From IMG/VR virus record IMGVR_UViG_3300025626_000007, positions 41,045 through 105,044 of that record: a stretch of 64,000 nt of DNA; one strand, written 5' to 3'. This stretch comes from a virus. The translations under genes and the position numbers were made by a program. Below are positions 1 to 57,522 of this stretch, piece after piece; the first letter of the stretch is position 1; every line of letters starts with the position of its first letter. The notes beneath the pieces are model-generated. The model was not told where the DNA came from. It ran no database searches and worked only from the letters and a program-made list of their open reading frames with translations.

Positions 1-42
1 GGAGAAATTTCTCTCCGTGAAGTAATAGATAACAACAATTAG
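1..42 (+). CDS. 3' end of an upstream gene (partial)
   Basis: Frame 1 is open from the window edge to a TAG at 40-42 and would give a C-terminus ending in VIDNNN. The stop lies directly against a late promoter, as expected for the end of a preceding late gene. Only 13 codons are visible, so no family can be named; position would suit a baseplate gene. A competing reading is that frame 3, which stops at 18-20, is the real one. Confidence 0.4.
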   Translation, partial: GEISLREVIDNNN

Positions 43-50
43 TATAAATA
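43..50 (+). promoter_or_regulatory. late promoter TATAAATA
   Basis: Exact match to the T4 late promoter box, 29 bases upstream of the first complete gene. In T4 this box is recognised by the gp55-type sigma factor; a gp55 homologue is encoded at 46236-46820. Confidence 0.75.
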
Positions 51-78
51 GAACATATAATCTTTAGGTAAAAAGAGA

Positions 79-1080
79 ATGACTAGACAAGTATTAAACA
101 GAGGCACAATCGCGAACGATGGTACGGGTGATACACTTCGTACTGCATCGTTGAAGATTGAACAAAACTTCCAAGAGATCTACAACAAACTTGGAGATGG
201 TGCATCTCTGATGGCGTTGATCGACTTTGACTCTTCGGGTATTATATTCGAAGGATCTGTCGAGAACAATTTTGAGACTCGTTTGCAAGTCGCTAACCCA
301 ACAGCAGATAACACGGTTACAATACCGAACTATTCTGGTGCATTGGTTATGGACTCTGCAACACAAACATTGTCTAACAAGACTTTACTAAGTCCTATTT
401 TGACTACCCCACAGATTAATGACACTTCATCGAATCACAGATATGTGGTTGCAGTGAATGAGTTGGCTGCGAATAGAACAATTACATTACCACTGTTGGG
501 TGCGGCAGATACTTTTGTATTTAATAACCACACCGCAATATTAAAGAACAAGACACTTCAGAATCCTACTCTTAACTCTCCGGTTATCGGTAAAGAGATT
601 CTTGATAGTGCGGGTAACGAATTAATACAATTCCAAGACTCCGGTTCTGCAACAAACTTTATTCGAATTGGTAACTCCCCCACTAGCGTACCTGCAATAG
701 TGCAAGCTGCGGGTGAAGCAAACTCCGCACTATCACTCAAGGGTTCGGGTAATGGTGGAGTTAAAGTTGACTCTAAACTTGTATTAAAAACACAGGGTAT
801 TTCGACAAATGGTGGTACCGTGAGTGCAAATTCACCAATAACATTATTCACCAATACAACTACTGGCGCACATAGTCTCGCAAGTGGTACCAGTGGACTA
901 AATGGTGAAGTTAAGTATCTTGTTAATAAGGGTGCGGGTACACAGACCATTAATGAAACTTCAAGTAATCTTGCTGCATACGCAAGTCTTATAATACCAC
1001 AGAACGAATCGGTTACTTTGATGTGGTTTGGGACTCAGTGGATTGTGATAAATAAAACTGATAACGTAACAACTTCGTAG
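79..1080 (+). CDS. virion structural protein, fibre-like
   Basis: 333 aa. The N-terminus (about residues 1-40, with NDGTGDTLR and a following amphipathic NFQEIYN stretch) is a module I associate with structural proteins of marine T4-like phages. The middle is Ser/Thr/Asn/Gly-rich with phrases such as NKTL and DSAGN, typical of fibre shafts. The last 50 residues form a compact-looking domain ending in an aromatic patch (MWFGTQW). No signal peptide or membrane segment is seen. It lies behind a late promoter and just before gp8, so a baseplate-proximal fibre or appendage is likely. The exact role is not known to me. Confidence 0.75.
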   Translation: MTRQVLNRGTIANDGTGDTLRTASLKIEQNFQEIYNKLGDGASLMALIDFDSSGIIFEGSVENNFETRLQVANPTADNTVTIPNYSGALVMDSATQTLSNKTLLSPILTTPQINDTSSNHRYVVAVNELAANRTITLPLLGAADTFVFNNHTAILKNKTLQNPTLNSPVIGKEILDSAGNELIQFQDSGSATNFIRIGNSPTSVPAIVQAAGEANSALSLKGSGNGGVKVDSKLVLKTQGISTNGGTVSANSPITLFTNTTTGAHSLASGTSGLNGEVKYLVNKGAGTQTINETSSNLAAYASLIIPQNESVTLMWFGTQWIVINKTDNVTTS

Positions 1081-42519: not shown

Positions 42520-43143
42520 ATGAGACACGTCTATATTATGAATGAGAATCTTCTGGATATACTAGAAGGTTTTAGAGAGTTGTTTATTGACAAATACGAT
42601 GTTACCAAGACCAATACCTTTCTTGATGGAGAGAATAGAGATCATTGGATTAGTGACGAATACTTACAATCTATACAAGTAGGTCATGATGGATCACCCG
42701 AATCAGCAAGGTCTTATTGTCTCAAGCCCGATCATGACGATTCATCTAATCTGGACTACCGAAAATCCTATATAACATTGGATGAAAGATTGAAGACTGA
42801 ACTAGGAGTGCGCAATTCTGCGCTTAGTCAGTTATATCCGGTTGGTGGATATATTGGATGGCATACAAATCAAAACGCATCTTCATACAATCTTATATTC
42901 ACATGGAGCGAGACCGGTGATGGTTATTTTGAGTGGGTCGATCCCATAACAAAAGATCATATTCGCATGAAGGATAAGAAGGGGTGGACATGTAAGGCTG
43001 GATACTTTGGTTCTTCCGAAGAGACAGATAAAATTATATACCATTGCGCATCAACAGACAGTAAAAGAATTACCCTCTCATATACTCTCGGGTTCAATCT
43101 AGAGTTCTGGGAAGACGTTATTGATCATATAAATACAGTTTGA
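42520..43143 (+). CDS. 2OG-Fe(II) oxygenase-like protein, HxN variant (paralogue 2)
   Basis: 207 aa, starting directly after the preceding stop. Same pattern as the 21339 protein: LYPVGGYIGWHTNQN (H115-x-N117), SETGDGYFEWVDP, KKGWTCKAGYFG and YHCASTDSKRITLSY (H175, R183). Both copies have Asn where the usual Fe ligand is Asp or Glu. The sequences are aligned without gaps over about 70 residues of the core but differ strongly in the N-terminal third, suggesting different substrates. Lies between a virion gene and uvsY. Confidence 0.65.
   Translation: MRHVYIMNENLLDILEGFRELFIDKYDVTKTNTFLDGENRDHWISDEYLQSIQVGHDGSPESARSYCLKPDHDDSSNLDYRKSYITLDERLKTELGVRNSALSQLYPVGGYIGWHTNQNASSYNLIFTWSETGDGYFEWVDPITKDHIRMKDKKGWTCKAGYFGSSEETDKIIYHCASTDSKRITLSYTLGFNLEFWEDVIDHINTV
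43128..43135 (+). promoter_or_regulatory. late promoter TATAAATA upstream of uvsY
   Basis: Exact late box at the end of the oxygenase-like gene, 23 bases before the UvsY ATG. T4 uvsY is also known to have a late promoter, which supports function. Confidence 0.65.
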
Positions 43144-43158
43144 TTATTGGAGATTATT

Positions 43159-43605
43159 ATGTTAGACCTTGAAAGTATATTATCAGAGTGGAAAGAGGAT
43201 TCCCAAATTCCACAACACCAACTGGACGAGGCGTCTCGACACACACCTAGTCTACATGCAAAATATTTACAGTACCTATCTCTCACAAAGTTACAACTCA
43301 AACGTGCAGAGAACTCTCAGAAGACTCTCTTGTTACAAAAATGGAAGTACTATAATGGTAAGATGGATCAAAAAGAGTTACTTGCTACTGGATGGGATTT
43401 AGATCCATTCGATGGACTCAAAGTACTCAAGGGTGACATGGATTTGTATTATGATGCAGATCCTGAGATTCAGAAATCCGAAGAGAAGTTACAGTACTAT
43501 AATACAATTATAGATACATTGAAAGAAATCGTACAAAGTCTCAACTGGAGACACCAAACGATTGGAAATATGATTCGGTATAGAGCGTTTGAAGCGGGTG
43601 CATAA
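43159..43605 (+). CDS. uvsY: recombination mediator UvsY
   Basis: 148 aa from ATG 43159 (T4 UvsY 137), chosen because TTGGAG lies upstream; an in-frame TTG at 43147 would add four residues. The C-terminus MIRYRAFEAGA parallels T4 MRAFEAGK, and the helical middle with KLQYYNTIIDTLKEIVQ fits. UvsY loads the UvsX recombinase on gp32-coated single-stranded DNA. It is followed by a small gene and uvsW, as in T4. Confidence 0.85.
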   Translation: MLDLESILSEWKEDSQIPQHQLDEASRHTPSLHAKYLQYLSLTKLQLKRAENSQKTLLLQKWKYYNGKMDQKELLATGWDLDPFDGLKVLKGDMDLYYDADPEIQKSEEKLQYYNTIIDTLKEIVQSLNWRHQTIGNMIRYRAFEAGA

Positions 43606-43606
43606 G

Positions 43607-43771
43607 ATGCGACAGTACGATGACGAAGACTTAGACAAAGCGAATTGGTTACACGAACATGGTATGTGTGTACAATTTAATATGATCGACTTGGCAAAGA
43701 GACTATATGAACAAAGACAACACGATACGAATAAGGATGTTAAACCACTCGTATCTGGCGATAGAGAGTAA
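43607..43771 (+). CDS. small protein between uvsY and uvsW
   Basis: 54 aa, highly charged (MRQYDDEDLDKANWLHEHG). One base after the UvsY stop; it overlaps the start of uvsW by 65 bases in another frame. T4 also has small genes (uvsY.-1, uvsY.-2) in this interval, although homology is not evident to me. The ribosome site is weak, so expression may depend on coupling to uvsY. Confidence 0.5.
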   Translation: MRQYDDEDLDKANWLHEHGMCVQFNMIDLAKRLYEQRQHDTNKDVKPLVSGDRE

Positions 43772-45218
43772 CGCATCCCAAGAGATGGAACTCCGTGAGT
43801 TCTTTGCATTTTTTGTGCCTGGATATAAGTACATGCCGGCATACAAACGTAAGGTTTGGGACGGCCGCGTAAAACTTTACAACACCGTGACCAAGACTTT
43901 GAACGTGGGTCTTTATCATCACTTGCGTAAATTCTGTGGTGATAGATTCTATCCCCTACAGATATTAGAACATGAAGAGTATGGTGTACCTAGTGCAACT
44001 ACGAAGGTTAATCATCCTGAGTTGGTAAAGTATCTAGGAAACCTCGGTAGTCCGTTCGATACAAGAGATTATCAGTATGAAGCGATATCTCATGGTATTG
44101 AAAACAAGCGGTGTTTGTTACTATCTCCAACCGGCAGCGGCAAGAGTTTTATTATATACAATTTATTACGGTTTGTCAAGGATAAAGAAGGTGTAGGTAA
44201 AACTTTAGTTATTGTTCCTACAACAAGTCTAGTTGAACAGATGTATAAAGACTTCGCTGACTATGGTTATGACGTAGAGAACGAATGTCACAAGATCTAC
44301 TCCGGTAAGGAGAAGGTTACTGATAAAGATGTCATCATCTCTACTTGGCAGTCAATCTATAAGTTTGGCCCGGAGTGGTTCGAACAATTCGATGCAGTGT
44401 TTGGTGACGAAGTTCACTTATTCAAGGCAAAGTCTCTGTCTACCATGATGGACAAATGTGTTAATGCGAAGTATAGGTTTGGTACTACGGGTACACTGGA
44501 TGGTACCGAGACGAACAAACTTGTACTTGAGGGTTTGTTTGGCCCTGTATATAAGGTAACTACTACTGCAAAGTTGCAGGAAGAGAAGACACTTGCAGAC
44601 CTAGAGATCTCTATTCTTCTTCTGAGGTATCACAATGATATCTGTCAACGGATGAAGGACAAAACCTATCAGGAAGAGATTGACTACATAGTTACAAATG
44701 AACGCAGGAATAAGTTCATTACTAAACTTACAAAGGACTTGGAAGGTAATAGTCTGGTCATGTTTCAGTTCGTTGAGAAACACGGTAAAGTTCTGTATGA
44801 GATGATAAAGGATTCGGTATCAGATACCGACCGAAAAGTATTCTATGTATCGGGAGAAGTTGATGCAACTGACCGAGAGAAAATTAGGGGAATAGTGGAG
44901 AAAGAAAATGATGCAATTATTGTCGCTAGTCTGGGGACTTTTAGTACTGGTATCAACATTAGGAATCTTCACAATATTGTGTTTGGGACTCCATCAAAGT
45001 CTCAAGTCAAAGTACTTCAGTCAATCGGACGAGGACTCAGACAATCCGACAACGAAGCAGTGACAAAGTTATTCGATATTGCTGACGACTTCTCTGTAAA
45101 AGGACACCGTAACTTTACTTTAAACCATTCGGGTGAACGTGTTAAGATGTACACGAAAGAGGGTTTTAAGTATAAGATATATAAGATAGACCTAAAAGGA
45201 AACGATGATGATATATGA
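43707..45218 (+). CDS. uvsW: UvsW helicase
   Basis: 503 aa, exactly the T4 length. Start at 43707 is supported by alignment of IRIRMLNHSYLAIE... with the first strand of T4 UvsW. Walker A SPTGSGKS is at about 141-148, GDEVHLF (DExH box) at about 232, and the motif VI-like QSIGRGLRQSD near 435. YQEEIDYIV and VMFQFVEKHGK match T4 (TYQEEI, FVMFKHVSHGK). It is an SF2 helicase that unwinds R-loops and branched DNA, turning off origin replication late in infection. Confidence 0.93.
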   Translation: MNKDNTIRIRMLNHSYLAIESNASQEMELREFFAFFVPGYKYMPAYKRKVWDGRVKLYNTVTKTLNVGLYHHLRKFCGDRFYPLQILEHEEYGVPSATTKVNHPELVKYLGNLGSPFDTRDYQYEAISHGIENKRCLLLSPTGSGKSFIIYNLLRFVKDKEGVGKTLVIVPTTSLVEQMYKDFADYGYDVENECHKIYSGKEKVTDKDVIISTWQSIYKFGPEWFEQFDAVFGDEVHLFKAKSLSTMMDKCVNAKYRFGTTGTLDGTETNKLVLEGLFGPVYKVTTTAKLQEEKTLADLEISILLLRYHNDICQRMKDKTYQEEIDYIVTNERRNKFITKLTKDLEGNSLVMFQFVEKHGKVLYEMIKDSVSDTDRKVFYVSGEVDATDREKIRGIVEKENDAIIVASLGTFSTGINIRNLHNIVFGTPSKSQVKVLQSIGRGLRQSDNEAVTKLFDIADDFSVKGHRNFTLNHSGERVKMYTKEGFKYKIYKIDLKGNDDDI

Positions 45219-45594
45219 TTTAAAACAAGTGAAACAACTCAAGTTATCCACTGGTGAAGAGATCATGTGTGAGATCCTTGAGGAAGATGATTATGATCTT
45301 ATTATTAGAAATCCTCTTACCATCCAGTTTGCGCAAGCCGAAGATGGCCAGAGAATGTGGTCGTTCCGTTTGTTCATGTGTTATCAGGATGATCCGGATA
45401 GATTCATTCTTTTGAAGTTGGATAAGATTGTCAGTATCGCTAATCCAGTTGACGAAATTTTGAAACAGTATGTTCAAGCAGTTGATTCTATAATGGATTA
45501 TGAAGGTACTGAACCAGAGTATGACGATGAGTTTGTTTCGATGGATAGTGACTCACCTAATAACATTTTAAAGTTCCCTACAACCATTCACTAA
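45205..45594 (+). CDS. small acidic protein, possibly Sm-like fold
   Basis: 129 aa, overlapping uvsW by 14 bases; it starts ATGATG, so either Met may be used. LKLSTGEEIMCEILEEDDYDLIIRNP resembles the first strands of Sm/LSm-type small beta barrels, and the C-terminal 40 residues are an acidic tail. This pattern recurs in small proteins of T4-like cyanophages. Function is unknown; RNA binding is a guess from the fold only. Confidence 0.6.
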   Translation: MMIYDLKQVKQLKLSTGEEIMCEILEEDDYDLIIRNPLTIQFAQAEDGQRMWSFRLFMCYQDDPDRFILLKLDKIVSIANPVDEILKQYVQAVDSIMDYEGTEPEYDDEFVSMDSDSPNNILKFPTTIH

Positions 45595-45687
45595 ACGTTA
45601 CATTGACTGGGGGGCAGACAACATGCTTATTTTATCACATAAAAAAGATTATGTCAAGTTATATTTTAATTATATTAGGATTATTTT
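45595..45687 (+). other. intergenic gap without a clear signal
   Basis: 93 bases. It contains TTGACT at 45603-45608 followed by a G6 run and AT-rich sequence, but no good -10 at 16-18 bases. No terminator hairpin was found. Confidence 0.5.
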
Positions 45688-46176
45688 ATGAAAGTTGGTT
45701 TAACCGCCTCTACATTTGATTTGTTACATGCAGGTCATATATCAATGTTACGTGAATCGAAGACACAGTGTGACTACCTTATATGCGCACTTCAGATAGA
45801 CCCTTCTACTGATCGTTCAGAAAAAAACTCTCCTGTCCAGACGTTGGTCGAAAGATACACCCAACTATCTGCGGTTAAGTATGTGGATGAGATAATCCCG
45901 TACCAGACCGAAAAGGACTTGGAGGACATTCTAAAGATGGTTGATATCGATGTGAGAATCATTGGTAGTGAATATAAAGACACGACCTTCACCGGACGTG
46001 CAACTTGTGCAGCCCGTGGTATAGAGATATACTTTAATAAGAGAGACCACAGATTTTCGACCAGTGACCTCCGCAAACGAGTATCCATGAAAGACCCCCT
46101 GATGGGTATGAAAGTTACCCAAGAAGAAGCGGTAAGAAAGAAAGCAGAAGATTGGTTACAACTACAGAACAGTTAA
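45688..46176 (+). CDS. cytidylyltransferase-like nucleotidyltransferase
   Basis: 162 aa. Nucleotidyltransferase HxGH motif HAGH at residues 14-17 in TASTFDLLHAGHISML, and a C-terminal HRFSTSDLRKRV that fits the ST-x-x-R/K motif of glycerol-3-phosphate cytidylyltransferase-type enzymes. These enzymes activate a phosphorylated alcohol or sugar with CTP. It is somewhat longer than TagD (about 130 aa). Together with the glycosyltransferases, sulfotransferase and epimerase in this window it points to a surface-glycan pathway. The true substrate cannot be read from the sequence. Confidence 0.8.
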   Translation: MKVGLTASTFDLLHAGHISMLRESKTQCDYLICALQIDPSTDRSEKNSPVQTLVERYTQLSAVKYVDEIIPYQTEKDLEDILKMVDIDVRIIGSEYKDTTFTGRATCAARGIEIYFNKRDHRFSTSDLRKRVSMKDPLMGMKVTQEEAVRKKAEDWLQLQNS

Positions 46177-46179
46177 CCC

Positions 46180-46208
46180 TTGACATTCATACCCTAAGAT
46201 AGTATAAT
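46180..46208 (+). promoter_or_regulatory. sigma-70 promoter of gp55
   Basis: TTGACA, 17-base spacer, TATAAT, all perfect. A 7-bp dyad TACCCTA/TAGGGTA (46190-46196 and 46208-46214) brackets the -10 and may be an operator. Confidence 0.88.
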
Positions 46209-46235
46209 AGGGTAAATATAAAGTGAGAGTACCAA

Positions 46236-46820
46236 ATGAAACCTAAAGATAGACCGCACTACGTAAACAACAAAGAGTTCTCCTTAGCGGTAGTAGATTA
46301 CTGTGAAAGTGTGCAGAACGCCACCTTAAACGGTAATGAACGTCCGATGATTAACGATTATATCGCATTGTGTTTTCTGAAGATTGCAGAAGGACTTTCA
46401 CACAAGTCCAACTTTGTTCGTTACACTTACCGTGAAGAGATGGTCATGGATGCAGTAGAAAACTGTCTCAAGGCTATCGAGAACTATGACATCACTAAAG
46501 TTACTCGCACCAACGCACCCAATGCTTTCGCATACTTTACACAGATCTCTTGGTACGCATTCCTCCGAAGAATCCAGAAAGAGAAGAAACAACAAGACAT
46601 CAAGATGAAGTATATCGCAGAAGCGGACGTGAGTATGTTTGTTGATGAATCTGGTGACGGCGAATCCTATGGACAACATGTCGTGGAAGGATTACGGCAT
46701 CGAATTGATACTGTTAAAGATGCGGATAAACAGTTCAAAGAGTATGTTAAAGAAGAAAAGAAACAGCGGAAGAGACGTGCAGTTAATGTCGATTCTGATC
46801 TTAGTGATTTTCTTACTTGA
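46236..46820 (+). CDS. 55: late-transcription sigma factor gp55
   Basis: 194 aa (T4 185). Aligned features: YVNNKEF (T4 YVNNKEL), LKIAEGLSHKSNF, YREEMVMDAVENCLKAIENYD, NAFAYFTQISWYAFLRRIQKEKK (T4 [23 protein letters not shown]). The C-terminus SDLSDFLT is a hydrophobic/acidic tail like that used by T4 gp55 to bind the sliding clamp gp45. It directs host RNA polymerase to the TATAAATA boxes listed here. Confidence 0.93.
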   Translation: MKPKDRPHYVNNKEFSLAVVDYCESVQNATLNGNERPMINDYIALCFLKIAEGLSHKSNFVRYTYREEMVMDAVENCLKAIENYDITKVTRTNAPNAFAYFTQISWYAFLRRIQKEKKQQDIKMKYIAEADVSMFVDESGDGESYGQHVVEGLRHRIDTVKDADKQFKEYVKEEKKQRKRRAVNVDSDLSDFLT

Positions 46821-46845
46821 CAGACTGATTTTTATCATGTATAAT
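46817..46845 (+). promoter_or_regulatory. sigma-70 promoter of gp47
   Basis: TTGACA overlapping the gp55 stop codon, 17-base spacer, TATAAT; all perfect. Predicted start about 24 bases before the gp47 ATG. Confidence 0.88.
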
Positions 46846-46875
46846 AGTAACATCTATTAATAAAATGAGTATTAT

Positions 46876-47940
46876 ATGAAGCTGGCAATCCTAAACGACA
46901 CTCATGCAGGGTGTCGTAATTCTTCTGATATCTTTATGGGTTACCAAGAACGTTTCTATTCCGAAGTGTTCTTCCCGTATCTGTTAGAGAATAATATTAC
47001 ACAGATTCTCCATCTCGGAGATTACTACGACAATCGTAAGACTATTAACTTCAAAGCACTTGCGCATAATCGTAAGATCTTCCTAGAGAAGTTACGAGAG
47101 TATGGTATCACTATGGATATCATTCCGGGCAATCATGACGTGTACTACAAGAACACCAATGAACTAAACGCACTGAAGGAACTCCAAGGTCACTACATGA
47201 ATGAGGTTAACCTTATCATGGAACCGACTACTATGGAGTATGGTGGACTGAAGGTTGCAATGGTTCCTTGGATCAATCCCGAGAACGAGAAAGAAACACT
47301 TGAGTTTCTGAAGAACACTAAAGCAGAAGTTGTGGGTGCACACCTTGAACTTGCAGGATTCGAGATGGCTCGTGGTCAAGTCTGTAAGGATGGTATGGAT
47401 AAGTCTGCGTTTGATCGGTTCGAAACTGTACTGACCGGACACTTCCATGCCAAATCATCACAGGGTAATATCCACTACCTTGGTGCACAGATGGAATTCT
47501 TCTGGAATGATTGCGGTGACCCTAAACACTTCCATGTCCTTGATACCAAAACAAGAGAAGTGGAAGCGATCCGTAACCCAATCACCATCTACGAAAAGAT
47601 TTACTATGACCACGAAGAGATGGGTGAGTGGAAGTTCAAGGATATGTCTTACTTAGATAATAAGTTTGTCAAGATCATAGTGAACAATAAGGGTGATGCT
47701 CTACAGTTCGAACGTTTTGTGGATCGTGTACAACAACAGAAGATTCATGAACTGAAGATTGCAGAAGACTTCAAAGATTTCCTTGGTGAGAATGTCGGTG
47801 ATGAAAACATATCTGTTGACGATACTCATACCTTAGTCAACGATTATATTGACAATGTTAATACTGATCTGAATAAGGACAGGATCAAAACAGAGATTTC
47901 ATACCTTATGAAAGAAGCCCAAAGTATGGAAGTAATTTAA
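46876..47940 (+). CDS. 47: recombination endonuclease subunit gp47 (Mre11-like)
   Basis: 354 aa (T4 339). Metallophosphatase motifs in order: NDTHAG near 8, HLGDYYDNR near 52, PGNHDVYY near 84, GAHLEL near 154 and TGHFHAKS near 185. With gp46 it forms the nuclease that resects DNA ends for recombination-dependent replication. A Mom-like gene separates it from gp46, which normally follows more closely. Confidence 0.94.
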   Translation: MKLAILNDTHAGCRNSSDIFMGYQERFYSEVFFPYLLENNITQILHLGDYYDNRKTINFKALAHNRKIFLEKLREYGITMDIIPGNHDVYYKNTNELNALKELQGHYMNEVNLIMEPTTMEYGGLKVAMVPWINPENEKETLEFLKNTKAEVVGAHLELAGFEMARGQVCKDGMDKSAFDRFETVLTGHFHAKSSQGNIHYLGAQMEFFWNDCGDPKHFHVLDTKTREVEAIRNPITIYEKIYYDHEEMGEWKFKDMSYLDNKFVKIIVNNKGDALQFERFVDRVQQQKIHELKIAEDFKDFLGENVGDENISVDDTHTLVNDYIDNVNTDLNKDRIKTEISYLMKEAQSMEVI

Positions 47941-47941
47941 T

Positions 47942-48469
47942 TTGAAGAGTGAATATGGTGTTCGAGAGATAACCATGAGTCAAGGATCAGATTGTATTAA
48001 GAGGTACCACTATCTTGGTACCCCATACATGGATGCACCGACCAATAAGTTTTATGGTTTGATCCACGGTGAGGATGTCGTGGGGGTGGTTCAGTTCAGT
48101 GACGGTCATTGTCATCCGTCTTTCGTTCCAATCTACTTTGGAGTGGACTCCCCCACGACCGGACTCTGGGACATGGCCAGACTGGTCGTATCCGCCAAAC
48201 ACCAAAACGAATATAACATTACCTCGTGGTTTCTATCGCGAGCATTGAAGATGTTGAAACCTAGGTATGTGTTGACAATGGCAGACCGTAGGATGCACAA
48301 TGGTACTATCTATGCGGCAACTGGGTTCGACTACTATGGACTTCAGAAGGGCGGGGACAGAGCCATTCGGGGTTATGAGGACGTGGAGTTTCATGTATTC
48401 ACTAAGTCATATGACCCTTCTATTAAATGCGTGTGGGATAAAATAAAGTTTGACAAGACTGACTATTAA
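47942..48469 (+). CDS. Mom-like GNAT-fold protein (possible DNA modification)
   Basis: 175 aa from TTG 47942 (GGAAG nearby upstream); ATG 47975 is an alternative that would remove the probable first strand VREIT. The pattern fits the phage Mu Mom family: RYHYLGTPY (21-29), a GL..GEDVVGVVQFSDG hairpin, WDMARLVVSAKHQ (76-88) then SWFLSRALKML (95-105), and VLTMADRRMHNGTIYAATGFDYYG (110-133). Mom proteins carry out an adenine modification that blocks host restriction enzymes. Sits between gp47 and gp46, upstream of the gp46 promoter, so it is expressed early. The family assignment is by remembered pattern and needs a profile search; a plain GNAT acetyltransferase is the alternative. Confidence 0.55.
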   Translation: MKSEYGVREITMSQGSDCIKRYHYLGTPYMDAPTNKFYGLIHGEDVVGVVQFSDGHCHPSFVPIYFGVDSPTTGLWDMARLVVSAKHQNEYNITSWFLSRALKMLKPRYVLTMADRRMHNGTIYAATGFDYYGLQKGGDRAIRGYEDVEFHVFTKSYDPSIKCVWDKIKFDKTDY

Positions 48470-48478
48470 TGGTATAAT
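48450..48478 (+). promoter_or_regulatory. sigma-70 promoter of gp46 (predicted leaderless)
   Basis: TTGACA, 17-base spacer, TATAAT; all perfect. The -10 ends six bases before the gp46 ATG, so transcription would begin at or next to the start codon. It lies inside the 3' end of the Mom-like gene. Confidence 0.85.
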
Positions 48479-48484
48479 ACCTGT

Positions 48485-50206
48485 ATGATAAAATTTAGTA
48501 AACTACGATATAAAAACTTCCTGTCATCTGGTAATGCCTTTACAGAGATAGACTTTGCAGCATCCTCTACGACATTGGTCGTGGGTCACAATGGTGCGGG
48601 TAAGTCTACTATGTTGGACGCATTATCCTTTGGTTTGTTTGGCAAACCCCACCGCAAGATCTCTAAAGGACAACTGGTCAATACCATTAATGGTAAAGGA
48701 ACAGTTGTTGAAGTTGAGTTCTCTATGGGTTCACAGGAATATAAGATTGTTCGTGGGATAAAACCTAACATATTCGAAATCTGGGTTGGTGGTAATATGA
48801 TCAACCAAGACTCTCATGCAAAAGAATATCAGTCTATGCTTGAGAAGAATATACTAAAACTTACCCACAAATCTTTTCACCAGATTGTTGTTCTCGGATC
48901 AAGTTCCTTTGTTCCGTTTATGCAGTTGACTGGTGGTGCGAGACGTGAGGTAATCGAGGATCTTCTCGACATCAATATCTTCTCTAAGATGAATAGTATT
49001 CTGAAAGAAAAGATGTCTGTGTTGAGAGATCAGATAACCACGAATGGTTACAACATAGAGATGTGTAAGACCAAGATAAACTCACAGAAGAAGTATCTAC
49101 GTGATTTGTCTGCAATCAATACTGCACATCGTAAAGAGAAAGAGTCGGAGATTGAGGCTAACCAGACTGAGATTGAGTTTCTTCAGGGGTACAATACTGA
49201 ACACATGGAGATTGTGACGACACAACTAGAAGACGTGTCGAAGAAAATCGAAGGTATAAACTCAAATCGTAACAAACTGATCGAGTACCAATCGACCTTC
49301 AAATCACAGATTAAGACTGTGGTTAAGGAAGCGAAGTTCTTTGACGAGAACGAACACTGTCCTACCTGTGACCAAGGTATTGCCGAAGACCTACGTGAGT
49401 CTAAGAAGGTATCTGCGAAGTCACGTGCAAAGGAACTGAACTCTGCAATGTCTAAGTCAACTCAACAGATGGGGACTTACGATGAACAACTTGTAGAACT
49501 CCATAGTCAGTTAGAAGAGGCCAAGACTTTACAGAACAATGTGAATAACAATAACCAGATGATTGCTAGGTTATACAAACAGAATGATAGTATTCGTTCT
49601 GATATGGATTCACAGTCAGAAACCACCGGCGACCTCAAGAGTGCTAACGAAGAGTTAGAGACTTTGAACACCGAACTGCACAAAACTCAGGACGAGAAGT
49701 ATATCCTTGCTGAACAGTACTCGTACAACCAAGTGAATGCTGAGTTGTTACGTGATACCGGCATCAAGACCAAGATCATCAAACAGTACATTCCGGTCAT
49801 CAATCAACTGACCAACCAGTACCTACAGATCTTGGACTTCTTTGTACATTTCGATCTGGACGAGAGTTTTCAAGAGACTATCCGGTCACGTTTCCGTGAT
49901 AACTTCTCTTATGATTCTTTCTCGGAAGGTGAGAAACAACGAATCGATTTGTCTCTATTGTTTACGTGGAGACAGATTGCTAAGATGAAGAATTCAGTCG
50001 CAACCAATCTATTGATTTTGGACGAGACTTTTGATTCATCATTAGACGATGATGGGGTTGACAATCTTATGAAAATCCTGTATAGTCTAGGGGAAGAGAC
50101 AAACGTTTTTGTTATCTCTCACAAGTCGGAACTTGAGGATGCTCAATTCCAACGTAAACTGGAATTTGTTAAAGAGAAAAACTTTTCCAAATTAAAAGCT
50201 GCATAA
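48485..50206 (+). CDS. 46: recombination endonuclease subunit gp46 (Rad50-like ATPase)
   Basis: 573 aa (T4 560). Walker A VGHNGAGKST near 34-43, then LFGKPHRKISKGQLVN as in T4. Zn-hook CPTC near residue 296, flanked by coiled coils. ABC signature FSEGEKQRI near 478 and Walker B LLILDETFDSS near 510. Start 48485 agrees with alignment to T4. Partner of gp47. Confidence 0.95.
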   Translation: MIKFSKLRYKNFLSSGNAFTEIDFAASSTTLVVGHNGAGKSTMLDALSFGLFGKPHRKISKGQLVNTINGKGTVVEVEFSMGSQEYKIVRGIKPNIFEIWVGGNMINQDSHAKEYQSMLEKNILKLTHKSFHQIVVLGSSSFVPFMQLTGGARREVIEDLLDINIFSKMNSILKEKMSVLRDQITTNGYNIEMCKTKINSQKKYLRDLSAINTAHRKEKESEIEANQTEIEFLQGYNTEHMEIVTTQLEDVSKKIEGINSNRNKLIEYQSTFKSQIKTVVKEAKFFDENEHCPTCDQGIAEDLRESKKVSAKSRAKELNSAMSKSTQQMGTYDEQLVELHSQLEEAKTLQNNVNNNNQMIARLYKQNDSIRSDMDSQSETTGDLKSANEELETLNTELHKTQDEKYILAEQYSYNQVNAELLRDTGIKTKIIKQYIPVINQLTNQYLQILDFFVHFDLDESFQETIRSRFRDNFSYDSFSEGEKQRIDLSLLFTWRQIAKMKNSVATNLLILDETFDSSLDDDGVDNLMKILYSLGEETNVFVISHKSELEDAQFQRKLEFVKEKNFSKLKAA

Positions 50207-50209
50207 GGG

Positions 50210-50238
50210 TTGACAAACGTTGCCCAATGTTATATAAT
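50210..50238 (+). promoter_or_regulatory. sigma-70 promoter of gp45
   Basis: TTGACA, 17 bases, TATAAT; all perfect, 29 bases before the gp45 ATG. Confidence 0.88.
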
Positions 50239-50267
50239 GACTGTATATTAACTGAGAGAACTAAATC

Positions 50268-50945
50268 ATGGAACTATCTGATCGTACCTTATCGGTACTT
50301 AAAAACTTCGCAAACATCAATTCTAACATTGTGTTTCGTGAAGGCAATGAACTAAAAACTATTTCGGTCGCAAAGAACATTCTTGCAAAAGTTACCCTAG
50401 ATGACGATATCCCATCCACCTTCGGTATCTACGACCTTAATGAATTCCTTAGTGTGTTGGGTCTAGTTGAGAAACCCGCACTAAGATTCGAAAAGACTCA
50501 CGTAGTAGTCTCTGACTCTACCGGTCTTCGTGGTAACCGTTACTTCTATTCTGACATTGATATGTTGTCTGCACCTAGTAAAGATGTCATCATGCCAGAA
50601 CCAGAAGTTAAGTTTACCCTAGATACTGATACATTGAGTCGATTGAAGCGTGCGTCCTCTGTCCTAGGACACGATTCGATTTCTATCACCCCCGAAGGTA
50701 AGTCTATCAAACTTACTGTGGTTGATAACGATGACGCAACTTCTAATAGTTTCTTCTCATATGTTGAAGGAGAGTTCCAAGAAGGAGTTGATTTCAACTT
50801 TGTCCTGAATGTGAACAACTTGAAGATTGTTTCCGAAGACTTTGAGGTTGGTATTTCTAAGAAATTGATCTCTAACTTTAAGTCGAAACAATCGTCCATT
50901 GAATATTTTATTGCACTTGAAAAATCATCTACTTACGGAGTATAA
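50268..50945 (+). CDS. 45: sliding clamp gp45
   Basis: 225 aa (T4 228). Start MELSDRTLSVLKNFANINSN and segments such as TFGIYDLNEFLSVLGL and SIEYFIALEKSS match the T4-type trimeric clamp. It tethers the polymerase gp43 and acts with gp55 in late transcription. Has its own strong promoter. Confidence 0.93.
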   Translation: MELSDRTLSVLKNFANINSNIVFREGNELKTISVAKNILAKVTLDDDIPSTFGIYDLNEFLSVLGLVEKPALRFEKTHVVVSDSTGLRGNRYFYSDIDMLSAPSKDVIMPEPEVKFTLDTDTLSRLKRASSVLGHDSISITPEGKSIKLTVVDNDDATSNSFFSYVEGEFQEGVDFNFVLNVNNLKIVSEDFEVGISKKLISNFKSKQSSIEYFIALEKSSTYGV

Positions 50946-50948
50946 GAA

Positions 50949-51167
50949 ATGAGTAACAAAGAAAAGGCACCAACACCACCAGTTAAAGACGAACGTATCG
51001 CAGTACTGTTAGACCTCGCTAATCGAGTCTCACGATCTACTGTCGCAGTAATCGATACTGTAGTACAACGTGGTGGCTTCAAAGGTGAAGAATTGTCTAC
51101 GATTGGTCAGTTGCGAGATCAAGCAATTGAATCTATCCAACTAGTTGAACAGTTACAAGACCAGTAA
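50949..51167 (+). CDS. small hypothetical protein after gp45
   Basis: 72 aa: a Pro/Lys-rich head (KEKAPTPPVKDERI) and a helical body (LLDLANRVSRSTVAVIDTVVQ, IGQLRDQAIESIQLVEQLQ). Starts three bases after gp45, so it is part of that transcript. T4 has rpbA and 45.2 close to gp45, but similarity is not apparent. Function unknown. Confidence 0.65.
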   Translation: MSNKEKAPTPPVKDERIAVLLDLANRVSRSTVAVIDTVVQRGGFKGEELSTIGQLRDQAIESIQLVEQLQDQ

Positions 51168-51175
51168 CCAACTAA

Positions 51176-51252
51176 GCGTTTGTCGTCTAATTGGATAAGG
51201 CATCCGCCTTCTAAGCGGATTATTGCAGGTTCGAGTCCTGCCAGACGCGCCA
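51176..51252 (+). tRNA. tRNA-Arg (anticodon TCT)
   Basis: Full cloverleaf: acceptor GCGTTTG/CAGACGC (one G-T pair), anticodon loop CTTCTAA, T loop TTCGAGT, discriminator G and encoded CCA at 51250-51252. Reads AGA (and AGG) codons. Confidence 0.95.
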
Positions 51253-51258
51253 AATAAT

Positions 51259-51332
51259 GCGGGTGTAGTATAGTGGTATTACAGGAGGTTTCCAACCTTT
51301 TGATGGGAGTTCGATTCTCTCCACCCGCTCCA
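51259..51332 (+). tRNA. tRNA-Gly (anticodon TCC)
   Basis: Acceptor GCGGGTG/CACCCGC perfectly paired, anticodon loop TTTCCAA, T loop TTCGATT, encoded CCA at 51330-51332. Six bases after the tRNA-Arg. Reads GGA (and GGG). Confidence 0.93.
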
Positions 51333-51351
51333 TATTATTATAGGAGAACGA

Positions 51352-51882
51352 ATGTTGTTTAAAACATATATCCCCGATGTTGTACACCATATGCGGGAAC
51401 GTGATGAATCTATTGGAGGAGACAATCCTTACAAGTGGGTTCGTAAGATGACAAGTGAATTGCTTGGGGGGAAGAAGGTTGTTGTGTTTGGACTGCCTGG
51501 CGCATTTACTCCCACTTGCACTAATGAACAACTACCTAACTTCGAACGACTCCATGACGAGTTTGTTGCAGAAGGTATTGAAGAGATCTGGTGCACTTCG
51601 GTGAATGATGCATTCTCGATGAACAAGTGGGCCAAAGACCTTGGTATCATCAAGGTGAAGATGTTACCTGACGGTAACGGTCAGTTTGCAGATGGTATGG
51701 GTTACTTAGTTGATAAGTCTAATCTGGGATTCGGCAAACGTTCTTGGCGTTACGCACTAGTCATTGATAACATGAGTATTGAACGTTGGTTCGATGAAGA
51801 CGGTATGTCTGACAATTGTCCGGACGACCCATACGAAGTATCTGACCCACAGAATGTTCTTGATACAATACGAAACAGTTAA
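51352..51882 (+). CDS. peroxiredoxin (Prx5/AhpC-TSA type)
   Basis: 176 aa. VVVFGLPGAFTPTCTNEQLPNF holds the peroxidatic Cys56 in the standard P-x-x-x-T-x-x-C motif. The rest (VNDAFSMNKWAKDLG, MLPDGNGQFADGMG, WRYALVIDN) matches Prx5-type enzymes that reduce peroxides with thiol partners. A host-derived metabolic gene, probably protecting the infected cell from oxidative stress. It sits between the tRNAs and gp44 with its own terminator. Confidence 0.88.
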   Translation: MLFKTYIPDVVHHMRERDESIGGDNPYKWVRKMTSELLGGKKVVVFGLPGAFTPTCTNEQLPNFERLHDEFVAEGIEEIWCTSVNDAFSMNKWAKDLGIIKVKMLPDGNGQFADGMGYLVDKSNLGFGKRSWRYALVIDNMSIERWFDEDGMSDNCPDDPYEVSDPQNVLDTIRNS

Positions 51883-51885
51883 TAT

Positions 51886-51908
51886 CCCCCCCGAAAGGGG
51901 GGTTTTTT
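51886..51908 (+). terminator. rho-independent terminator, abutting the gp44 promoter
   Basis: CCCCCC-GAAA-GGGGGG hairpin followed by six T. The T tract ends two bases before the -35 of the gp44 promoter. Confidence 0.93.
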
Positions 51909-51909
51909 A

Positions 51910-51938
51910 TTGACAATGAAACACAGGTGTGTTATAAT
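51910..51938 (+). promoter_or_regulatory. sigma-70 promoter of gp44
   Basis: TTGACA, 17 bases, TATAAT; all perfect. A 6-bp dyad ACAGGT/ACCTGT (51923-51928, 51940-51945) brackets the -10. Confidence 0.88.
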
Positions 51939-51967
51939 TACCTGTAAATTAAATTATGGAGCAATAC

Positions 51968-52906
51968 ATGAAAGATGAATTCTTATGGGTCGAGCGGTTT
52001 CGTCCACAGAAAGTATCAGACACTATCCTGTCGTCTGACCTAAAAGTAACATTCCAAAAGATCGTAGATGGTGGTGAACTACCTAACATGTTGTTCTCTG
52101 GTACTGCGGGTACTGGTAAGACGACTATCGCACGTGCCATGTGTGACGAACTTGGTCTTGACTATATTGTCATCAACGGATCTGAAGAGGGTAACATTGA
52201 TACTCTTCGTGGTAAGATCAAACAGTTTGCATCCTCGGTATCACTGTCCGGTGGTTACAAGGTTGTTATCCTAGATGAGGCTGACTATCTCAATCCTCAA
52301 TCTACCCAACCCGCTCTCCGTGGGTTTATCGAGGAGTTCTCTAATAACTGTCGGTTCATTCTGACATGTAACTTCAAGAACCGTGTAATCGAACCATTAC
52401 ACAGTCGTTGTTCTAATTATGAGTTTAACTTCTCTAAGAAGATTATGCAACAGTTGTGCGGTCAGTTTATGGTACGTGCACAGGATATTCTGGAAGGTGA
52501 GAATGTCAACTATAACAAAGATGTACTTGCACAGTTGATTATGAAACACGCACCGGACTGGAGACGTGTACTCAACGAACTACAACGACACAGTATCTCT
52601 GGTCAGTTGGAAACTACGTCTATTATCACTGACGCAAACTCAAACTACAGTCTTTTGTTCAAGGCACTGAAGGGTAAAGACTTTAAGAAGATGCGTGGAT
52701 GGGTTGTCAATAACATGGATGTAGAACCTGCGTCTATCTTCCGTGGTATATACGATGCAATGTCCGAGTATGTACAACCCCAATCGATTCCGCAACTGGT
52801 ATTGATTCTTGCTGATTATCAATACAAGAATTCTTTTGTTGCGGATCACGAACTAAATCTGGTCGCATGTATGACCGAAATTATGGCTAATGTAGAGGTG
52901 AAATGA
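51968..52906 (+). CDS. 44: clamp loader large subunit gp44
   Basis: 312 aa (T4 319) from ATG 51968, preferred because TGGAG lies six bases upstream; ATG 51956 would add four residues. Walker A GTAGTGKTT, Walker B VVILDEADYL and the sensor-1 region FILTCNFKNRVIEPLHSRC (SRC arginine-finger motif) identify an AAA+ clamp loader. It opens gp45 with gp62 to load it on primed DNA. In T4 gp62 follows directly; here three genes come between. Confidence 0.94.
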   Translation: MKDEFLWVERFRPQKVSDTILSSDLKVTFQKIVDGGELPNMLFSGTAGTGKTTIARAMCDELGLDYIVINGSEEGNIDTLRGKIKQFASSVSLSGGYKVVILDEADYLNPQSTQPALRGFIEEFSNNCRFILTCNFKNRVIEPLHSRCSNYEFNFSKKIMQQLCGQFMVRAQDILEGENVNYNKDVLAQLIMKHAPDWRRVLNELQRHSISGQLETTSIITDANSNYSLLFKALKGKDFKKMRGWVVNNMDVEPASIFRGIYDAMSEYVQPQSIPQLVLILADYQYKNSFVADHELNLVACMTEIMANVEVK

Positions 52907-53280
52907 TGAATGATTATCAAAAAGATGTAGAAGATTTTATGGTGATTGGAGGACACGAAGTTCCTGACCATAGTGGGATGGAGAGCGATCAAGCAAATCT
53001 GTATATGGATTTAATTGAGGAAGAATTTTGGGAGACCAAACAGGCATTCTTACACGGTGATATTGTAGAAGTCGCAGATGGTCTTGCAGATATGGTATGG
53101 GTTATCATGGGTCTGGCCTCTACTCTAGATATGGACTTCAATGATATTTGGAAAGAAGTTAAACGTTCTAACATGTCTAAGTTTCCCGATGGCGTTGCGA
53201 TTCGTAATCCCGAGACAGGTAAGATTATGAAACCAGATACATTCTCTGAACCAGATCTTGCGAGTGTGTTGGGTGTCTAA
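52903..53280 (+). CDS. MazG-like nucleotide pyrophosphohydrolase
   Basis: 125 aa; overlaps gp44 by four bases and begins ATGATG (52906 may be the actual start). All-alpha NTP-pyrophosphatase metal sites: EEEFWE (E41, E44) and EVADGLADMVW (E56, D59). Family members hydrolyse (d)NTPs or related signals to the monophosphate. Next to a dCMP deaminase, so nucleotide-pool remodelling is the likely role; cyanophage MazG has also been linked to alarmone control. Confidence 0.8.
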   Translation: MMNDYQKDVEDFMVIGGHEVPDHSGMESDQANLYMDLIEEEFWETKQAFLHGDIVEVADGLADMVWVIMGLASTLDMDFNDIWKEVKRSNMSKFPDGVAIRNPETGKIMKPDTFSEPDLASVLGV

Positions 53281-53707
53281 GTGGAGTGATGCGCACATGG
53301 CGGTTGCCGAGACATATGCAAAATTGTCTTCGGCTAACCGACTGAAGGTTGGTTGTGTCATTGTGAAAGAGAACCGCATCATCTCTATCGGATACAACGG
53401 TATGCCTTCTGGTTGGGACAACAACTGCGAACATGAAGTGAAGACTGGCAACACAGGTTACGGTAGGAAACTAGTCACTAAAGACGAAGTTCTACACGCA
53501 GAAACTAATGCGATTGCGAAGGTTGCACAATCCTCGGAATCGTGTTATAATAGTGATCTATATACTACAACGGCACCGTGTTTAGACTGTGCTAAACTAA
53601 TATATCAATCAGGTATCAAGAATGTTTATTACCGTACTCCGCACTTGCGCAGTACAGACGGTATAGATTTTCTTGGAAAATGTGGAATACCCGTATGTCA
53701 AATATAA
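53273..53707 (+). CDS. cd: dCMP deaminase (zinc cytidine deaminase family)
   Basis: 144 aa from GTG 53273, chosen so that KWSDAHMAVAET is kept; an ATG at 53297 with GGAG ten bases upstream is a real alternative, and TTG 53258 is less likely. Zn ligands and catalytic Glu are in HAETNA, and PCLDC gives the Cys pair; ISIGYNGMPSGWDNNCE is family-specific. Converts dCMP to dUMP for dTTP synthesis. Overlaps both neighbours. Confidence 0.88.
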   Translation: MSKWSDAHMAVAETYAKLSSANRLKVGCVIVKENRIISIGYNGMPSGWDNNCEHEVKTGNTGYGRKLVTKDEVLHAETNAIAKVAQSSESCYNSDLYTTTAPCLDCAKLIYQSGIKNVYYRTPHLRSTDGIDFLGKCGIPVCQI

Positions 53708-54354
53708 TGATTAATGATATTTACGAGATGACTCCGGCAGACAATGTACTGTATTTTCCTAATAACATAGATGTTAGGATATGTCCTAAAAATGGTATGT
53801 CTTCCGTGAAAGAGGCTCTTCGTAGATCTTTGGCTTCTAGAGCTCCTCTGGGACTCGTGGATAGAGTTTTATCGGTGAAGAAACACGCAGATCAATTCGA
53901 TATCCCCTTCAGAAAAGGTTCTTATCGCATTGCTATAAGACGCGATCCGATTGATAGATTCAAATCTGCGTGTGAATTCATTCAATCCGCACGTGCTTTC
54001 TACATTAAAAATGGCAGAGATTTACCAGATATATCACTACAGATTGATCGAGTTATTGATGATATGGAACGGGGTTTGGTGAAAAATAGTCACTTCTATA
54101 CACAGTCTTGGTACATGGGTCATCCCGATGATTATGATATGGTTTATCATATTAGCGAGATACCGAAACTTCTTGACTTCCTCCAAGAAGCCTGTACAAT
54201 AGAACGTGACATTAGTGGATTACATGAAAACCGAACTACAATGAAATTATATAATGATGCGATATCACCAGAACATCTGGTGAAACTTCGCAACTTTTAC
54301 TTGAAGGATTACAAAAATGGCTGGTGCAAACAAGAAGACCGTCTCCCCGTTTGA
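53695..54354 (+). CDS. sulfotransferase-like protein
   Basis: 219 aa from ATG 53695 (GGAA seven bases upstream); ATG 53680 is also in frame. CPKNGMSS (30-37) resembles the 5'-phosphosulfate loop of PAPS-dependent sulfotransferases, and IRRDPIDRFKSAC (81-93) the 3'-phosphate site. Such proteins transfer sulfate to sugars or other acceptors. They are known as accessory genes in marine phages. Overlaps the dCMP deaminase by 13 bases and gp62 by 38 bases. Confidence 0.7.
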   Translation: MSNIMINDIYEMTPADNVLYFPNNIDVRICPKNGMSSVKEALRRSLASRAPLGLVDRVLSVKKHADQFDIPFRKGSYRIAIRRDPIDRFKSACEFIQSARAFYIKNGRDLPDISLQIDRVIDDMERGLVKNSHFYTQSWYMGHPDDYDMVYHISEIPKLLDFLQEACTIERDISGLHENRTTMKLYNDAISPEHLVKLRNFYLKDYKNGWCKQEDRLPV

Positions 54355-54712
54355 TTTTTTACAAAGCATAAACCACTCGAAGATAGATATATATGAGGGT
54401 AACGAGAAGGGTTATGTCCCTTTCGTTATCAATCGCAGTTTGTCGTACTTCCCCGACACAGTTGCACTGGCGAATGAGATGAATCGGTATCACCATATCG
54501 ATAGTAAGTTACAATATCAATTTCTTATAAATATAGTTAGGAAACGAAAACGGTTTTCTAAATGGGTAAAACCTGAAATAGAAAATGATATTGAATTGGT
54601 GAAAGAGTATTATGGATATAGCAATGATAAAGCGCGTCAAGTCCTACCGTTACTCTCCGCCACACAACTAACTATTATAAAAGATAAGGTGAATAAAGGT
54701 GGAAGAAAATAA
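54317..54712 (+). CDS. 62: clamp loader small subunit gp62
   Basis: 131 aa, shorter than T4 gp62 (187). PFDFLQSINHSK, VINRSLSYFPDTVALANEMN (T4 has NALSQFPECMPAVYAMN) and RKRKRFSKWVKP (T4 RGKRYGKWAK) are diagnostic. It has no ATPase motif, as expected. Works with gp44 in a 4:1 complex in T4. Separation from gp44 by three accessory genes is unusual. Confidence 0.85.
   Translation: MAGANKKTVSPFDFLQSINHSKIDIYEGNEKGYVPFVINRSLSYFPDTVALANEMNRYHHIDSKLQYQFLINIVRKRKRFSKWVKPEIENDIELVKEYYGYSNDKARQVLPLLSATQLTIIKDKVNKGGRK
54536..54543 (+). promoter_or_regulatory. late promoter-like TATAAATA inside gp62
   Basis: Exact TATAAATA within the gp62 reading frame, about 195 bases upstream of regA. It could give late transcription of regA and the oxygenase behind it, or be chance. 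Confidence 0.3.
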
Positions 54713-56722: not shown

Positions 56723-57522
56723 AGGCATATCAGATAGTAATAAAGGGTGATAAAGTATCCGAGGAGTACGCACGTATCTCTCGTGAATCTTTTCAGCCTG
56801 CAATTGACGCGGGTATCATCGATGAGATAATAACCTTTGATGCGATCACTCCAGACTCTGTAGATTTTGAAGAACATTTGTCAAGATATAATTGGCAAAC
56901 TTCTTTAATGCAGGCTGATCTATATGGTAGTGCCCCTGATGACCATTCTCCTACCGAGAAGGCAGGAATGTGTTCTCATTGGGAACTTATGCGCATGGCG
57001 TCCGAGTCTGATGAGAGATTCTTAGTATTGGAACATGATACCTTTTTCATAGAAGAATACTTAGATGTGTTGAAATCTATAATTAAGTTTATTGAAGAAA
57101 TGGATGTCTTGTATGGAAACATTGGTTTGTTTATGGGGTGTTATACCTTGGAGAAGGAAACCGCTGCATGGCAATACGATATGTTGACCCAAGGTAACTT
57201 CCCTATTAACTGTGGCCCATATTGCACACTACAGAGATTATATTCGACATACACTACACGTGTATTAAAATATGAAAATTATAGAGGTCGTGAGACAACT
57301 CTTGTGCATCCTTGGCACGGGTGTGACACTCTACATTTTGGTCGAAACATCCAAAAACCCTTCAACAAAAGGGATCCCAATATTACATTCAATCCATGGA
57401 GAACACCTACTACTCAGGTCATATCTAAGAAACTTTGTGTTACCCAAGATCATCACGGGTACAATCAAAAATACATAGATGCACCTTGGACTCGTCATCA
57501 CTATTTTCATATAATAGATTGA
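56719..57522 (+). CDS. glycosyltransferase family 25-like protein
   Basis: 267 aa, starting at TTG 56719 in a TTGA overlap with the previous stop. EKAGMCSHWEL (80-90) and FLVLEHDTFF (101-110) match the GT25 pattern (galactosyltransferases of LPS synthesis: G-x-x-x-SH and LE-D-D). The second Asp of the usual EDD is replaced (LEHD). Probably acts in the same glycan pathway as its upstream partner. Confidence 0.6.
   Translation: MKAYQIVIKGDKVSEEYARISRESFQPAIDAGIIDEIITFDAITPDSVDFEEHLSRYNWQTSLMQADLYGSAPDDHSPTEKAGMCSHWELMRMASESDERFLVLEHDTFFIEEYLDVLKSIIKFIEEMDVLYGNIGLFMGCYTLEKETAAWQYDMLTQGNFPINCGPYCTLQRLYSTYTTRVLKYENYRGRETTLVHPWHGCDTLHFGRNIQKPFNKRDPNITFNPWRTPTTQVISKKLCVTQDHHGYNQKYIDAPWTRHHYFHIID

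Follow-up and report, generated by a model that had tools for sequence, protein, structure and literature searches.

The window analysed here is a 64,000-nucleotide stretch (positions 41,045 to 105,044) of the 105,044-bp virus record IMGVR_UViG_3300025626_000007, in which the local gene order is uvsW-like, gp55, gp47, mom, gp46, gp45 and gp44 (Table 1). The initial annotation had placed a Mom-like protein between the gp47 and gp46 nuclease genes, and its reading frame proved correct to the base, running from a TTG start to a TAA stop, encoding 175 residues and beginning 1 nt after the gp47 stop codon. The motifs on which that annotation drew are all present in the order claimed: RYHYLG (residues 21–26), GVVQFSDG (48–55), ARLVVS (79–84), SWFLSRALKML (95–105) and MADRRMHNGTIYAATGFDYYG (113–133). 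Two features favour the TTG start: a putative ribosome-binding GGAAG sequence 9 nt upstream and a K(S/T)x(Y/F) motif after the start that is kept in distant relatives, which carry ATG, GTG or TTG at that codon; the close relatives L020 and L021 have CTG at the start codon. The frame is kept at 80–100% identity in 23 of 31 IMG/VR loci (two of the 23 truncated by a contig end), which, with the Pfam Mom score given below, argues against a chance open reading frame. The complete record contains one Mom profile match.

Table 1 Features of the mom locus and its surroundings, numbered from the first letter of the window
Feature	Position	Strand	Basis or remark
Perfect promoters before gp55, gp47, gp46, gp45 and gp44	46180, 46817, 48450, 50210, 51910	+	
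Consensus sigma-70 promoter TTGACA-N17-TATAAT, likely for gp47 and mom	46817..46845	+	Sequence
Gene 47 (SbcD-like nuclease subunit), 5′ neighbour of mom	46876..47940	+	PHROG 100, E 5.6e-95
GGAAG, Shine–Dalgarno-like, within the end of gp47	47928..47932	+	Sequence; inference
mom (compact Mom-family, GNAT-fold DNA-modification gene)	47942..48469	+	Pfam PF25680, PHROG 1384, model match to 8bv8
Consensus sigma-70 promoter TTGACA-N17-TATAAT for gp46, −35 box in the last mom codons	48450..48478	+	Sequence
Gene 46 (SbcC-like nuclease subunit), 3′ neighbour of mom and end of the slot	48485..50206	+	PHROG 77, E 1.2e-165
tRNA-Arg(TCT) and tRNA-Gly(TCC), between gp45 and the peroxiredoxin gene	51176–51332		2.7–2.8 kb downstream of mom
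Peroxiredoxin gene, between sliding clamp gp45 and clamp loader gp44	51352–51882		PHROG 2281, E 3.6e-64
dCMP deaminase	53258		PHROGs
Clamp loader small subunit	54317		PHROGs
RegA	54699		PHROGs
CxWCG open reading frame at the 47/46 junction of relatives			Carriers L227, L228, L235, L236–L239, L242, L264–L267, L269, L270, L279–L281, L283, L284, L286–L290

Against Pfam, the window protein matched Mom (PF25680) with an E-value of 2.5e-12 (47.3 bits, cut-off 27.1), and against the PHROGs it matched family 1384, 'Mom-like DNA modification protein', at 6.5e-17. UDG (E 0.0044) and DUF4305 (E 0.14), the only other Pfam matches at E ≤ 1, both fell under the Pfam cut-off and were rejected as identities. 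BLASTP of the window protein against Mu Mom gave 25% identity over 137 columns (E 2e-05, for this single comparison). With the single mom sequence as query, a search of the PDB gave no convincing match (best, citrate synthase, E 1.7), and 8bv8 was reached by profile only: a profile of 15 Moms headed by the window protein, run against 177,635 distinct PDB sequences, retrieved 8bv8, 'Methylcarbamoylase mom', at E 2.7e-58, which denotes a shared family rather than an independent match because Mu Mom is among the 15. The sole other entry under E 1 scored 0.59. The Mom profile matched record G000 and 8 of the 11 others searched, and a single scan of contigs from bacterial and archaeal genomes yielded one partial relative, 45% identical over 41 residues, in a Bacteroidales MAG.

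An AlphaFold model of the mom protein, built with an alignment of 45 window and contig proteins (three Mu-type), reached a pLDDT of 85 and a pTM of 0.85. In a Foldseek comparison with the PDB, 8bv8, entitled 'Crystal structure of the phage Mu protein Mom inactive mutant S124A', took ranks 1 and 2 (E 2.7e-10, TMq 0.74–0.75), and among the matches listed the 48 remaining rows had a TMq of at most 0.66. VIA-align superposed the model on 8bv8 with a Z of 18.0 over 161 residues (r.m.s.d. 2.7 Å), the best other GNAT scoring 13.7, and the last strand of the model was included in the superposition (model 2..172 to chain 37..241).

The candidate active site is also retained. S95 aligns with Mu S124, the residue mutated in 8bv8, and H23, Y24, R80, D115 and Y124 align with Mu H58, Y59, R111, D149 and Y159; all six are invariant in 15 Moms from the gp47/gp46 junction (slot Moms, comprising the window protein and its relatives). 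These five Mu positions we take to be H48, Y49, R101, D139 and Y149 in a numbering that is shorter by ten residues, reportedly the Mu Mom residues studied by Karambelkar in 2020; Mu Mom binds acyl-CoA and iron. A 15-protein alignment that includes more distant phages has H23, Y24, G48, R80, G121, Y124, A126 and G133 invariant, with N92, S95, D115 and H119 each in 14 of the 15 (exceptions: N92 is D in LP65, S95 is T in HGTV-1, D115 is E in CRP-902 and H119 is R in Mu). In the 45-protein alignment H23, Y24, G48, R80, N92, A114, D115, G121, Y124, A126 and G133 are invariant, and S95 is conserved in 90% or more.

The GNAT fold is widespread, with 526 PDB matches of the model at E ≤ 0.001 in Foldseek and a Z of at least 8 for 899 of 999 chains in VIA-align, and closeness to many other GNAT chains was rejected as a guide to identity, being a matter of shared fold only. 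An ordinary GNAT N-acetyltransferase that modifies a host protein during host take-over, like phiKMV Rac, would have this fold, which many acetyltransferases have in common, and phage GNATs acting on RNA polymerase are described (PMC7824862). However, scores for the Mom profile and for the Mu Mom structure clearly exceed those of all other listed GNATs, and the Mom-specific HY...R...N..S...D...H.G..Y set is kept; we consider a host-directed acetyltransferase very improbable. Mu Mom, not an ordinary N-acetyltransferase, was the top PDB match by profile, Foldseek and VIA-align, and the Mom/GNAT assignment made in the initial annotation is thus upheld by sequence profiles, fold and active-site residues alike.

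Within the Mom family, the window protein belongs to a compact group. The slot Moms measure 172–176 residues (13 proteins) against 241 in Mu Mom and 194–218 in sister environmental Moms (L024–L030, L065–L129 and L177–L201 of the non-redundant set, minus MazG fusions), in which a tail 'KKDF..DG..KHSRG..KG..GEW..R..KHR' is conserved. In the slot Moms a short loop and a single strand stand in place of this tail and vary between sub-types, and the 'KHSRG..EW..R..KHR' block is absent from the clade. Pfam Mom covers the window protein at profile positions 2–132 of 202 only, leaving the C-terminal third unmatched, and its alignment ends at 135–139 in the slot relatives L229, L231, L251, L282 and L013; full profile length characterises other Mom members, and the family definition does not call for it. 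A longer C-terminus in L020 and L021 was considered, as a Mom profile search that ignored stops reached position 185 across a TAA, and rejected, as the protein ends at that TAA. In a tree of 49 proteins the 13 slot Moms form one clade with 100/100 support, found in all 200 bootstrap trees; the clade is long-branched (1.66 changes per column), and the tree program warned of long branches meeting, this one included. Remote slot Mom sub-types are 34–39% identical to the window protein. The compact subfamily has so far been seen only between genes 47 and 46. A search of titles and abstract starts, with few subscription papers among them, found no description of a compact Mom clade or of a Mom between genes 46 and 47, which is a weak negative; Mom genes of large phages are already reported (PMC7824862).

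Loss of the C-terminal element could mean that the window protein is a Mom-family DNA modifier with a product other than that of Mu, differing in the acyl or amino-acyl group, in the target site or in acting on a single-stranded or RNA target. The long branch, the missing sister-Mom block and the variable tail are in keeping with such a change, as is the unsettled chemistry of Mom, for which an acyl-CoA such as glycyl-CoA is named as donor in one review (PMC7824862). Yet the window protein retains the residues that matter in Mu Mom, and its last strand superposes on 8bv8, and we regard a different product as unlikely, the preferred reading being an adenine modifier of the Mu kind.

The gp47/gp46 junction is a cargo slot. 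Among the 31 relatives retrieved with the window Mom, 23 adjoin gp47, and gp46 is also in view in 21 of these; the other eight are remote (30–34% identity) and have neither gp47 nor gp46 in the stretch inspected. For L251-type Mom relatives (n = 14, some of them contigs also found in the gp46 scan), gp47 and gp46 flank 12; the remaining two each have the single flank that their contig covers. A scan with gp46 alone, taking the best 80 of 305 relatives, had gp47 in reach in 76 loci, with mom in 23 and not in 53; the totals of 30 loci with and 54 without mom include eight added loci (seven with mom, and C48C1). To call mom absent, the window Mom served as tblastn query (E 1e-4), together with the list of open reading frames in gaps of more than 60 nt. 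Junctions that lack mom are either empty (gaps of −4 to 52 nt) or occupied: some hold small open reading frames, others a cell-wall hydrolase (E 1.4e-22) or a PhyH-like oxygenase (E 8e-10). The small frames include a cysteine-containing one, perhaps a zinc-ribbon, with no Pfam match for the one examined. A family of small frames ending in CxWCG (mostly 'CNWCG') fills the slot in many mom-less relatives (Table 1), and the one member examined had no Pfam match. Because the slot also holds an oxygenase, a hydrolase and a small cysteine-containing frame, none of them known to modify DNA, position alone does not predict DNA modification, and the suggestion that this block is a natural place for a modifying gene is one of the weaker parts of the initial annotation.

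Some of the mom-less loci are very close to the window. In L220 and L224 the gp47 and gp46 proteins are 98–99% identical to those of the window and mom is absent; L220 retains a few bases of the 5′ part of mom and its last 29 nt, a remnant of both ends that looks like a deletion, with an assembly error possible on this 4.5-kb contig. The closest named phage by gp46 (63% identical) is C48C1 (Kyanoviridae), in which genes 47 and 46 overlap by 4 nt and no Mom match was found in its 156 kb. These loci bear on the idea that Mom marks phage DNA and spares it from the phage's own gp46/gp47 nuclease while host DNA is broken down, which would explain the place of mom between the two genes and fits its predicted co-transcription with gp47. 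L220 and L224 have nearly the same nuclease and do without mom, and the junction carries other cargo or nothing in the 53 of 76 gp46-selected loci (from the best 80 of 305), so that we give this self-sparing role hardly any credence in comparison with protection against host restriction.

Synonymous distances were compared across the locus. Between the window and the L016/L017 clade, mom had a dS of 0.22/0.17 (dN 0.07/0.08), whereas 12 other genes ranged from 1.29 to saturated (gp44, with a dN of about 2, was left out since its codons were apparently paired across gaps); against L021, mom had a dS of 0.43 and six other genes 1.54 to saturated. Nucleotide identity to L016/L017 was 66–75% at the end of gp47, 87–95% inside mom and 75–79% at the start of gp46, and synonymous distance is the cleaner measure because some conserved gp47 and gp46 stretches also reach 82–90%. 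The remote mom sub-types L298 and L232 showed no comparable closeness to the window mom. A dS of about 0.2 for mom between two clades, against 1.3 to saturation nearby, indicates that the cassette moves, and the simplest reading of these sequence distances is that the window-type cassette was transferred between phage clades by homologous exchange at the 47/46 junction. The dN/dS of window-type mom was 0.12–0.54 in nine pairs, some resting on 3–5 synonymous changes, which points to selection on the protein; against L013 it was about 0.35 compared with 0.113/1.708 (0.07) for gp47, so that the constraint is weaker than on this core gene.

Promoter sequences suggest when mom might be expressed. 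TTGACA-N15-19-TATAAT occurs at 10 sites in the window against 0.18 expected. Besides the five listed in Table 1, perfect TTGACA-N17-TATAAT sites among these lie at 57519 and 62749 (+), and the series mostly fronts replication genes; the site at 57519 stands before the gene of a DruA (Druantia)-matching protein in the replication region (57571–58707, Pfam E 5e-09). No promoter of its own was found in the 70 nt upstream of mom (best score, four mismatches), so mom should be transcribed from the gp47 promoter, probably on one transcript with gene 47. A terminator-like hairpin at 46895–46917, one of four such in the region against 2.7 expected, lies between that promoter and mom and could weaken read-through. 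Of 86 valid loci (L268 was left out, its gp46 start being off the contig), 50 carry the perfect gp46 promoter, mom-bearing and mom-less loci among them; for comparison, 3000 random 70-nt stretches drawn from the window yielded 13. Nothing resembling it (at least four mismatches) stands before gp46 in 12 loci, the L229–L234 mom types included. The site is common to the mom-less L220, L224, L253 and L257, and in L220 it lies within the mom remnant. The T4-type late motif TATAAATA has 10 sites, all on the + strand, where 4.4 were expected on both strands and 2 of 100 shuffles reached 10, and none occurs from 43136 to 54525. The sigma-70 promoter before gp47 and the absence of the late motif from this region lead us to predict early expression of mom.

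Other genes were examined for links to mom. The tRNA pair downstream (Table 1) was considered since a glycyl donor is proposed for Mom (PMC7824862); the pair occurs in all 10 scanned window-type loci that extend far enough (L001 stops short of it) and in none of seven scanned sister-clade loci with window-like mom (L013, L014, L016, L017, L019, L020 and L021), and because of this absence from another clade with such a mom the link was rejected. The 105-kb record has no match to thymidylate synthase/hydroxymethylase (PF00303) or to D12 (PF02086) and C5 (PF00145) methylases, which is not proof of absence as the record may be incomplete. A D12 methylase as a replacement for mom was likewise rejected, none of 19 records (9 with and 10 without mom) having one and C48C1 having one, with no pattern. 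The psbA profile (PF00124) found nothing in G000 or C48C1 and did find a match in cyanophage S-IOM18. Outside the window, a carbamoyltransferase (L045, G000:5404–6900; Pfam C-terminus E 8e-45, N-terminus 2.4e-29) adjoins genes with weak glycosyltransferase matches, and the record has no thymidylate-synthase-like hydroxymethylase; carbamoyltransferases of this kind can modify hydroxymethylcytosine. In Roseobacter phage CRP-212 (L037, 2998–3924), Mom (E 4.5e-20) is fused to a C-terminal MazG nucleotide pyrophosphohydrolase (E 4.1e-9), as it is, judged by length and sequence end, in L164, L168 and L174; the public annotation of CRP-212 gp15 begins downstream of the start of Mom homology.

In the literature, Mu Mom is described as introducing an unusual adenine modification (PMC3874153), as shielding Mu DNA from restriction (PMC6483171), as a methylcarbamoylase (PMC10434257), the name also used in the PDB, and as toxic when expressed artificially (PMC12707154). 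From the family, fold, retained active-site residues, location, promoter sequences, presence and absence and horizontal-transfer signature observed at this locus, we infer the enzymatic activity, chemical product, early timing and anti-restriction role of the window mom. We suggest, as the probable reading, that it encodes a compact Mom, expressed early through the gp47 promoter, that modifies adenine at N6, counters restriction and forms an exchangeable cassette at the 47/46 junction. Under the host-type sigma-70 promoter of gp47, mom would be transcribed early and yield an enzyme that adds a bulky group, probably carbamoylmethyl as in Mu, to N6 of many adenines in replicating phage DNA, and the modified adenines would block a broad set of host restriction endonucleases. 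We propose that the need for it depends on the restriction systems of the host, so that phages could acquire, exchange and drop the cassette at the gp47/gp46 junction, with the surrounding core unchanged. Four findings count against this explanation: most of the C-terminal third of Mu Mom and other Moms is missing, close relatives lack mom, the dN/dS of mom is higher than that of gp47, and the terminator-like hairpin stands between the gp47 promoter and mom. A more far-reaching version is conceivable, if doubtful: an early, Com-independent anti-restriction cassette, compact, confined to the slot in one T4-like phage group and swapped between phage lineages by homologous recombination, whose truncated C-terminus would give a product or target site unlike that of Mu and hence an undescribed hypermodified adenine.

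On the probable reading, a group of uncultured T4-like phages is predicted to carry hypermodified adenine in its DNA, and a Mom of about 175 residues may serve as a minimal Mom for working out the unusual chemistry of the family. The natural pairs with and without mom (the window against L220 and L224, with near-identical flanks) permit a clean genetic test, and the locus indicates that a T4-like core replication region can dock accessory, probably counter-defence, genes.

Compared with known systems, the window protein shares with Mu Mom (P06018; PDB 8bv8) the GNAT fold, the profile family and six aligned candidates for the catalytic or metal site, but it has 175 residues against 241, is 22% identical, lacks the first 35 or so residues, has a shortened C-terminal third and carries H119 where Mu has R154. 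Mu mom overlaps com, whereas the window mom has gp47 directly upstream and no com-like overlap; and Mu mom is described as a late, C-activated and Com-dependent gene (PMC4461284, PMC6483171), in contrast to the consensus sigma-70 promoter before gp47 and the early expression predicted here. The Moms of HGTV-1, LP65, phiSA_BS1, DillTech15 (mycobacteriophage), CRP-212 (Roseobacter) and Phynn (Pantoea) have the family and its invariant residues in common with the window protein, but are 24–34% identical to it, have a longer C-terminus and lie in other genomic places; in Phynn, which is T4-like (Straboviridae), mom lies beside a DNA methyltransferase, with no gp47 or gp46 annotated within 3 kb. 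Mom–REase fusions of jumbo phages (PMC7824862) likewise place a Mom domain with predicted DNA protection in large phages, whereas the window Mom has no fused nuclease. Its gp46 and gp47 neighbours make up the recombination nuclease typical of T4-like phages, which occurs whether or not mom is there. Last, the T4 α-glucosyltransferase gene (a-gt), the precedent offered by the initial annotation, is indeed a DNA-modifying gene near gene 47 of a T4-like genome, but it encodes an unrelated enzyme with a different base and chemistry and does not occupy the same place: a-gt lies on the other side, upstream of gene 47 with 47.1 between, and in T4 it is 46.1 and 46.2 that stand between genes 47 and 46.
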